Below are positions 15,028 through 17,407 of a stretch of DNA of 64,000 bases, in pieces. Under the pieces are notes generated by a model. That model was not told the origin of the DNA, did not search any database, and saw nothing but the letters and a program-made list of their open reading frames with translations. The translations under genes were made by a program, and so were the position numbers. Position 1 is the first letter of the stretch, and each line of letters opens with the position of its first letter. The DNA is from Candidatus Synechococcus calcipolaris G9 (GTDB lineage: Bacteria; Cyanobacteriota; Cyanobacteriia; Thermosynechococcales; Thermosynechococcaceae), in the NCBI RefSeq assembly GCF_029582805.1, contig NZ_JAKKUT010000002.1, positions 310,001-374,000 of the forward strand. The letters are read 5' to 3'.

Positions 15028-16353
15028 CTAGAGAAATGTTAAGGACTTACCCCGCACCTGGGTCTTTAATTCGCCGCGATCGTAGGCAATGTGCCCCCCC
15101 ACCACGGTATAGACGGGCCAACCCGTGAGTCGCCAGCCTTCAAAGGGACTCCAACCGCATTTACTGACTAATTCCTGGCGCAAAACCGGCCGATAGGTTT
15201 GCAAATCTACAATCACTAAATCCGCATCATAGCCGGGAGAGATCGCCCCCTTATCGGGAATTTTATAGGCCTCAGCCACGGCCGTAGACATCCAGCGGAC
15301 GACTTGGGCCAAGGAACAGCGACCAGCTTGGGATTGGGTGAGCATAAGGGGTAAGGATGTTTCTACCCCTGGCATTCCTGATGGGCTTTGGGGATAGGGT
15401 TGGGCCTTTTCTTCTAGGGTATGGGGGGCATGATCCGTGGCAATAAAGTCCAGCACACCGTCTAAAAGGCCTTGCCAGAGGAGGTGATTATCTTCGGCGG
15501 TGCGGAGGGGAGGATTCATCTGGGCCAGGGAACCAATGTCCCGATAGGCTTCCTGATTGAGGAGTAAATGCTGGGGTGTCACTTCCGCTGTCACCCAAGC
15601 GGGTTTATCCTGGCGCAACAACTCCACTTCTAGACCCGTCGATAGGTGGAGAATATGGAGACGACGTTGATATTTTTTAGACAGTTTCAGGGCTAACTGG
15701 CTGGCATTGAGGGCAGCTTGGGCATCTTGAATCACGGAGTGGGCGGCCACATCTTGGCGATCGCTAAACTGTTTTCGTCGCTCTAAAATTCGCCCTTGAT
15801 CCTCGGCATGAACCGCAATCAGGCGATCGCCCCGACTAAAAATTTGATCTAGGATGGGTTCTTCATCCACAAGCAACGGGCCGTGCATGGATCCCATAAA
15901 AATTTTGATGCCACAGGTGGGGTTCACCTGATTTAAGACATCCAGATTGTCCTTGGTGGCCCCAATAAAAAAACCATAGTTGACTAAGCATTTCGCAGCG
16001 GCCCGTTTTAATTTATCATCTAGAGCCCCTTGATCCGTAGTGAGGGGGCGGGTATTGGGCATTTCCAGGAAGGATGTCACCCCTCCCTTGGCGCAGGCGC
16101 AACTGGCGGTATGGAGATCCTCCTTATGCTCTAGGCCCGGTTCACGAAAATGTACCTGGGGATCAATGACTCCGGGCAAAACCGTTAACCCCTGGGCTGA
16201 AATTAGAGTTGTTCCCGGTTCTGGCTCCAGGGTTTCCGCCAGTTGGATTATTTTACCTTGGTTGATTTGTATATCCATGGTTCGGCAGGAGCCGTCGGGT
16301 AGACAGACCCGACCACCCTGAATTAAAAGGTCTGGAGCATCGGTTGGGAGCAT
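15028..16353 (-). CDS. pyrC: Dihydroorotase
   Basis: Zinc amidohydrolase of pyrimidine synthesis; 441 residues, the longer class I type. Metal motifs DPQVHFREPG (residue ~65) and ATDHAPHT (residue ~305), with KIFMGSMHGPLL around the carbamylated Lys. The C-terminal amidohydrolase beta-sandwich is complete. It is divergent from sigF, with 253 bases between them. Confidence 0.95.
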   Translation of the reverse strand: MLPTDAPDLLIQGGRVCLPDGSCRTMDIQINQGKIIQLAETLEPEPGTTLISAQGLTVLPGVIDPQVHFREPGLEHKEDLHTASCACAKGGVTSFLEMPNTRPLTTDQGALDDKLKRAAAKCLVNYGFFIGATKDNLDVLNQVNPTCGIKIFMGSMHGPLLVDEEPILDQIFSRGDRLIAVHAEDQGRILERRKQFSDRQDVAAHSVIQDAQAALNASQLALKLSKKYQRRLHILHLSTGLEVELLRQDKPAWVTAEVTPQHLLLNQEAYRDIGSLAQMNPPLRTAEDNHLLWQGLLDGVLDFIATDHAPHTLEEKAQPYPQSPSGMPGVETSLPLMLTQSQAGRCSLAQVVRWMSTAVAEAYKIPDKGAISPGYDADLVIVDLQTYRPVLRQELVSKCGWSPFEGWRLTGWPVYTVVGGHIAYDRGELKTQVRGKSLTFL

Positions 16354-16478
16354 GGGAGAAGATTATATTAGGTGAGATTAGTCCTGTGGTCTGATTCTGA
16401 CATTTCCGGGAAACCCTGGCAAAGGTTAAGATAATGTAAAGGTTTGGCGATAACAGGTTAACTAAACTTAGGGTTCAT

Positions 16479-16494
16479 TGTGGTATCGATCACA
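16479..16494. promoter_or_regulatory. CRP-like palindrome upstream of sigF
   Basis: TGTGGTATCGATCACA differs in one base from the TGTGA-N6-TCACA consensus of CRP proteins, including cyanobacterial SYCRP1, and sits 113 bases before the sigF start. It could also serve the divergent pyrC gene. Prediction only. Confidence 0.45.
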
Positions 16495-16606
16495 ATGTTA
16501 TTCATCACGACCTGAGATACTAGAGGGTACGTTAAGCTATAACGAATTCATAAAACTTAAAACTATGTAAAATCTGCAAAATCAAAGGAAGAGTGTTCCT
16601 CAACCT

Positions 16607-17407
16607 ATGTCTGTTCAAACCTCCAGTTACGAAATCAAGGAATCTACCCTGGTATTGCTGCAAGCCTATCAGAACGATCCCCAGCTTTCTTTGCGTAATC
16701 GCTTGGTTCAATTAAATCTAGGCCTTGTCCGCAAGGAAGCCCACCGCTGGCTCAACTATAGTCAAGAATCCTTTGATGATCTGATGCAGGTCGGTAGCTT
16801 GGGTTTGATTCGGGCGATCGAGCGGTTTGAGCCGAGTAAGGGAGCCGCCTTTAGCTCTTTTGCCATGCCCTATATCCGTGGCGAAATTCAGCATTATCTA
16901 CGGGATAAAAGTCCCCACATTCGCGTCCCCCGCCGTTGGCAATCCCTACAACGCCAAGGCTATCGGATGAAACAGGAGCTACGCCAAACCCTAAATCGTG
17001 CCCCCAGTGATACTGAAATTGCGGCGGCCCTAGAGGTTCCCCTCGAAGACTGGCAGGAAGCACAGCAGGTCAATCAGCATTGCTCCCCCCTCAGTTTAGA
17101 TGCCCCATCCATGGATCTGGAAGAAGAAAGCGCCAGCTTGGGGGATCTCGTTCCCGATCATCGCTATCAAAGTTTCCAATTAGCCCAAGAAGATCAAATC
17201 CGGTTGCAGCAATGCCTGCAAAAGCTAGAGGGGCGCACCTGTGAAATTTTAGAGTTTGTGTTTCTCCAGGATCTGACCCAGAAGGAAACGGCGGAACTCT
17301 TGGGACTAAGTGCGGTGACGGTCTCACGACAAGTAAAAAAAGGTTTAGCTGCTCTGCGGCGGATGATGCAGCAGGATATTTTCCCGGATCATAAAAACAA
17401 GGACTAA
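16607..17407 (+). CDS. sigF: RNA polymerase sigma factor SigF (group 3)
   Basis: 266-residue alternative sigma factor. Region 2 is seen in DDLMQVGSLGLIRAIERF with FSSFAMPYIRGEIQHYLRD, a sporulation/flagellar-type (sigma-28/37) pattern; region 3 in PRRWQSLQRQGYRMK and TEIAAALEV; region 4 in LTQKETAELLGLSAVTVSR. In Synechocystis SigF controls type IV pili and phototaxis. A CRP-like palindrome lies upstream. fmt follows after 12 bases and may be co-transcribed. Confidence 0.88.
   Translation: MSVQTSSYEIKESTLVLLQAYQNDPQLSLRNRLVQLNLGLVRKEAHRWLNYSQESFDDLMQVGSLGLIRAIERFEPSKGAAFSSFAMPYIRGEIQHYLRDKSPHIRVPRRWQSLQRQGYRMKQELRQTLNRAPSDTEIAAALEVPLEDWQEAQQVNQHCSPLSLDAPSMDLEEESASLGDLVPDHRYQSFQLAQEDQIRLQQCLQKLEGRTCEILEFVFLQDLTQKETAELLGLSAVTVSRQVKKGLAALRRMMQQDIFPDHKNKD

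Follow-up and report, generated by a model that had tools for sequence, protein, structure and literature searches.

Pili and phototaxis in Synechocystis require both cAMP–CRP and SigF. At the class II CRP-dependent promoters of Escherichia coli, the activator site is located at −41.5, with a −10 element downstream and without a −35 element. An earlier note on the DNA presented here had placed a CRP-type palindrome upstream of sigF and proposed that it joins the two circuits at the level of sigF transcription. The Synechocystis background invoked by that note agrees with the available text of published reports, in which SigF drives pilA1 and phototaxis (PMC7690835) and Sycrp1 controls motility (PMC7076178).

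Two described modes of sigF control serve as points of comparison. Synechocystis sigF is reported to be autoregulated, with a promoter named PsigF-22/-21 (PMC2758279), and in Nostoc punctiforme a sigJ–sigC–sigF cascade has been described, with no J-Box found at the sigF promoter according to the available part of that report (PMC6495340). Both resemble the locus described here in that this sigma factor is controlled through its transcription. On the CRP side, the SYCRP1 (sll1371) target slr1667 of Synechocystis carries the box TGTGATCTGGGTCACA, and cyanobacterial CRP targets have a −10 box approximately 22 bp downstream (PMC2633013). For Thermosynechococcus BP-1, 29 CRP sites were predicted at p < 0.01; in the available text of the same paper, pilus-assembly and phototaxis signalling genes are not among the predictions and sigF is not named among the SYCRP1 targets (PMC2633013). 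The sigF site shares with SYCRP1 targets a CRP-type box, the −10 spacing and the motility and pili theme, but SYCRP1 targets have A at position 5, whereas the sigF sites found here never do. The class of mechanism is already known; for the link between sigF and CRP, no earlier report was found in the titles and abstract openings of the open-licence literature (supplements excluded), and CRP control of sigF is not reported in the available portions of PMC2633013, PMC6495340, PMC2758279, PMC7690835, PMC4759255 and PMC7076178.

The palindrome upstream of sigF and its promoter layout

The palindrome lies exactly where the earlier note had placed it in the window, the whole 64,000-nucleotide stretch that was analysed (Table 1). 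As that note had said, TGTGGTATCGATCACA is one base off the consensus TGTGAN6TCACA, with A replaced by G at position 5; it differs from the fuller palindrome TGTGATCNNGATCACA by two mismatches, and the genome contains a single copy of the exact 16-mer. The start codon 112 nt downstream belongs to a gene whose product is SigF by NCBIfam NF005644 (389.6 bits, cut-off 261). On its other side, the gap is bounded by a divergently oriented gene for an amidohydrolase (Pfam PF01979), which starts at 16353 and is dihydroorotase-like by eye.

Table 1. Positions of the sigF promoter features in the window and of the candidate small RNA region elsewhere in the genome.
Feature	Position	Strand	Remarks
CRP-type site TGTGGTATCGATCACA	16479..16494	+	centre 16486.5; TGTGAN6TCACA match
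Imperfect palindrome, 22 bp	16476..16497	.	encloses TGTGGTATCGATCACA; from sequence
Putative −10 element GATACT	16516..16521	+	21 nt past the site; −10 role predicted
Predicted transcription start	16528..16528	+	7 nt past the end of GATACT; 79-nt leader
sigF, group 3 sigma factor, 266 aa	16607..17407	+	
Candidate small RNA region	L047 1501-1650 = G000:C2:995393-995542		outside the window

With SATACT taken as the −10 element, the centre of the site falls at −41.5. No two-hexamer plus-strand promoter with a −35 element was found in 16340-16620, as expected for an activator-dependent promoter. The layout therefore shares with E. coli class II CRP promoters the −41.5 centre, the missing −35 element and a −10 element downstream on the same strand, and differs from them in having one half-site that departs from TGTGA and a group 3 sigma factor as its target. 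The J-Box of N. punctiforme (GGGaAtacT in the available text) resembles SATACT, but most sequences here are without its three G, and a J-Box or SigJ promoter reading of sigF was set aside because the likeness is only partial. Shared control of the divergent amidohydrolase gene is unlikely as well, since the minus-strand hexamer at the equal distance is CCTGTT and the neighbour in Thermosynechococcus differs by eye.

Rarity in the window was dropped as an argument for TGTGGTATCGATCACA, as the site is no rarer there than by chance: the fuller palindrome TGTGATCNNGATCACA with up to three mismatches is found once where 2.04 occurrences are expected. When the 250 bp before sigF were subjected to dinucleotide shuffling, a site with up to one mismatch arose in 27 of 4,000, and a site followed by ATACT at the correct distance in none of the same 4,000. 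The sigF site is taken as real because of its conservation rather than its rarity across the window.

Conservation among relatives and in wider scans

The SigF search gave matches in all 97 genomes, from which 30 loci were fetched, 29 of them with readable upstream sequence. The site was present in 12 of these 29 upstreams, namely in this genome, in the sister genus (G009) and in 10/10 readable Thermosynechococcus; the sequence of an eleventh Thermosynechococcus (G028) stops 25 nt before sigF and is left out of that count. No site with up to one mismatch was found in the other 17, of which 11 are in the strain's own family and 7 of those 11 are Acaryochloris. The check that the earlier note had named, conservation of the site in relatives, thus came out in its favour for all ten readable Thermosynechococcus and one sister genus, with 11 other family members lacking the site. 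When the 12 sequences were aligned on the site, TGTGG-N4-GATCACA was followed by ATAST invariably 22 nt past TCACA, and invariant columns made up 16 of the 22 in the site and −10 hexamer versus 1 of the 114 other columns. The distance from this block to the aligned sigF start ranges from 93 to 191 bp (n = 12), while its internal spacing is constant. In Thermosynechococcus, the end of a same-strand gene precedes the site by eye, unlike in this strain; because the preceding region differs in this way, the site seems to move with sigF. The comparison supports a putative CRP-type, class II-like sigF promoter kept in Thermosynechococcus and two related genera and matched in certain lineages further away, and direct cAMP control of sigF is probable since, in thermophilic cyanobacteria and a number of remote relatives, the site was kept while the surrounding DNA changed.

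Scanning 388 cyanobacterial genomes for TGTGRN6TCACAN22ATACT returned 17 hits in 17 genomes (two for the reversed control), of which 11 precede a SigF gene and six, which all read TGTGA, are located elsewhere. With a second pattern, 10 of 13 hits lay before SigF. G026, whose site is paired with ATAGT, escapes both patterns and G018 escapes the second. In G018, a Thermosynechococcus, TGTGGAGCAATTCACA occurs seven times, as though one element had been copied. Among 79 named sigF upstreams no shorter than 250 nt, a site with up to one mismatch is present in five (two of the five Thermosynechococcus). Removal of two Thermosynechococcus and one upstream that was too short from 80 loci left 77 test upstreams, and 24 of these contain a site with up to two mismatches, compared to 8.7 in mononucleotide shuffles. 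With the 99th percentile of mononucleotide shuffles as threshold, a weight matrix trained only on the 12 aligned sequences placed 12 of the 77 above it, where 0.8 were expected, and 65 under it. All 12 positives are located at −71 to −91; five of them (Laspinema, Oscillatoria and Phormidium) are TGTGTTAGAGATCACT-N21-GATACT and near-identical among themselves, so that the number of independent positives is nearer eight, and the weakest (L067) is scarcely over the threshold.

The presence of CRP was rejected as the cause of this distribution, as a CRP match at E ≤ 1e-60 is present in 79 of the 97 genomes, most of which are site-less. Across ten genomes, forward plus reverse site counts exceeded the reversed control by approximately 1.8- to 4-fold with palindromes counted twice, an enrichment that is at most mild. 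Many site-less sigF upstreams of other genera (L028-L036, L041-L043 and others) share a GTTCCGTGGAAATGC- or GTTCCGTGGATTTGCTGATG-like stretch that is not seen by eye in this strain or Thermosynechococcus and is perhaps a different sigF control element.

CRP-type boxes before a candidate small RNA and other genes

A palindrome, TGTGATCTATATCACA, at G000:C2:995393 (L047) precedes an apparent small RNA of approximately 75–83 nt, which has a hairpin at its 5′ end, an almost unvarying segment that includes ACAGGGAACACA, and a hairpin terminator followed by a T-run. When the 150-base region was searched at the DNA level, 49 of 97 genomes were matched, giving 54 matches in 53 loci (L197-L215, L217-L249 and L047); ten loci, mostly Acaryochloris, could not be anchored and 43 were examined. 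A CRP box with up to one mismatch lies within approximately 160 nt upstream at 38 of the 43 loci (0.18 expected), and 17 of the boxes are perfect. Relative to the approximate RNA start, they begin at about −46 in the anchored loci of the strain's family and at about −66 to −68 in most others, two positions some 20 bp apart, like class II versus class I sites; two of the 38 (L227 and L231) are positioned elsewhere, L231 being doubtful because of a loose anchor. The same −10 element (CATACT, AATACT) recurs with these boxes, at a box-to-ATACT spacing of 23 nt in the aligned loci, one more than at sigF, and serves as an internal control for the sigF promoter. Three of the loci were searched against Rfam 15 and gave no match up to E = 1. 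This has the appearance of a small RNA that is conserved across cyanobacteria and controlled by CRP, for which no report was found in the titles and abstract openings of the open-licence literature.

Two further palindromes were recorded in passing. In Thermosynechococcus (L180-L186 and L192), an FHA-domain gene is preceded by a conserved perfect CRP palindrome (TGTGATCAATATCACA or a variant), and the GGTARAAGT that follows the TGTGATCAATATCACA-type palindrome resembles the SigF −12 box GGTAA. Another perfect palindrome, TGTGATTATTGTCACA (G000:C2:1399666-1399681, L048), is located between two minus-strand genes, the upstream one being like an ammonium transporter by eye.

Predicted activator, competing readings and consequences for sigF control

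The genome has nine matches to the cNMP-binding domain, eight above cut-off, and class III cyclase domains at four loci. Four CRP/FNR-like proteins were compared, including NtcA and one that is nearest PtrA, below the PtrA cut-off; the R-E-x3-R recognition helix is found in L004 alone. L004 combines a cNMP-binding domain (PF00027, 77.9 bits) with a Crp-type helix-turn-helix (PF13545, 60.1 bits), both above cut-off, and scores 86.8 bits against the NCBIfam CRP model, far under its cut-off of 266. Counterparts 85–88% identical to it occur in 11/11 Thermosynechococcus and in G009. The residues with which E. coli CRP reads DNA (R180, E181, R185) are kept in L004 and 12 orthologues. Of those that contact cAMP, L004 keeps G71, E72, R82 and S83, but the orthologues have L or V in place of T127 and N in place of S128, which makes cAMP a possible rather than an assured ligand.

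Taken together, the sigF palindrome is probably the site of a CRP-family activator in a class II-like promoter, where it would raise sigF transcription. The strain's activator, for which the 231-aa product of G000:C2:1343886-1344578 is the likeliest candidate, would bind the palindrome at −41.5 of a promoter that has GATACT as its −10 element and lacks an evident −35. Probably in its cyclic AMP-loaded form, CRP would bring in RNA polymerase in the class II manner and so raise transcription of sigF and, via SigF, of pilus genes too. A cAMP–CRP input to sigF is the most economical reading given the class II layout, the L004 helix with its orthologues and the cyclase domains; what we infer from these comparisons is that CRP binds, that it needs cAMP to do so, that its effect is positive and not repressive, where transcription starts and what follows from a rise in SigF.

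The distal half-site requires separate consideration. Among 24 sigF sites, 12 have G at position 5, 8 have T, 4 have C and none has A, and the sites are therefore filed as CRP-type rather than consensus; the matrix training sites all have G at this position, so T or C was not favoured over A. Other conserved CRP sites in the same genomes carry TGTGA, and a lineage-wide preference for TGTGG was rejected because TGTGA precedes the small RNA and the FHA-domain gene in those genomes. At the small-RNA sites, position 5 is A in 41/41 (L218 and L231 dropped before counting), a result partly built in as these sites were selected by likeness to TGTGA. We read the distal half-site of sigF as weakened, presumably with lowered affinity, and sigF might then respond to high cAMP–CRP only. 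It is distinctly unlikely, though conceivable, that the operator is asymmetric, with the canonical GATCACA beside polymerase and both halves recognised by a CRP–paralogue heterodimer (L004/L002-like) that would combine cAMP with a second signal; in Synechocystis, Sycrp2 possibly interacts with Sycrp1 (PMC7076178). If such a heterodimer reads the site, CRP would stand above both sigF and a conserved small RNA.

Absence of A at position 5 of the sigF sites, set beside TGTGA at the other conserved sites, is also what would be seen if another CRP/FNR member read the palindrome, whether L002 (alone or paired with CRP), NtcA or the PtrA-like protein. All three proteins are encoded in the genome, and it has been suggested that in some cyanobacteria CRP-like sites may be recognised by further members of the family (PMC2633013). 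We regard this as unlikely, because the invariant TGTG and TCACA are CRP half-sites and L002 is without R180, E181 and R185. NtcA recognises GTA-N8-TAC, and this motif is not present in the site. That CRP binds but represses or merely modulates sigF, for example by standing in the way of a second promoter within the gap, is very improbable: sigF of Synechocystis has a gene-proximal promoter used by SigF itself, so that other promoters are possible (PMC2758279), but the constant spacing to a conserved −10-like hexamer suits activation.

The window and shuffling counts given above, by which the site is not rare and an equally good one arises in 27 of 4,000 shuffled upstreams, are what a functionless chance palindrome would predict; such an origin is scarcely credible in view of the invariance over 12 genomes of three genera with diverged surroundings and of the 12 further upstreams out of 77 where 0.8 were expected. 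Equally hard to sustain is a role of the inverted repeat as RNA, in the form of a terminator or leader hairpin, even though a scan labels the repeat terminator-like in this strain and a G-U wobble would arise in RNA from the G/T pair at position 5. No T-run follows the repeat in Thermosynechococcus by eye, no same-strand gene ends before it in this strain, C at position 6 in G018 breaks a pair and the repeat lies upstream of the predicted transcription start. A search of the sigF gap against Rfam gave no match up to E = 1.

A CRP-family activator at a class II-like promoter thus remains the reading that we favour, and the link between CRP and sigF proposed in the earlier note gains support from the conservation in relatives and the class II spacing to a −10-like element, a feature absent from that note. 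As Synechocystis sigF is reported to be autoregulated, the link is argued, from sequence comparison, for lineages other than Synechocystis. There, a conserved CRP-type sigF promoter would chain cAMP–CRP and SigF in the relatives of Thermosynechococcus and several other lineages, and would suggest a route from a change in cAMP to SigF-dependent genes.
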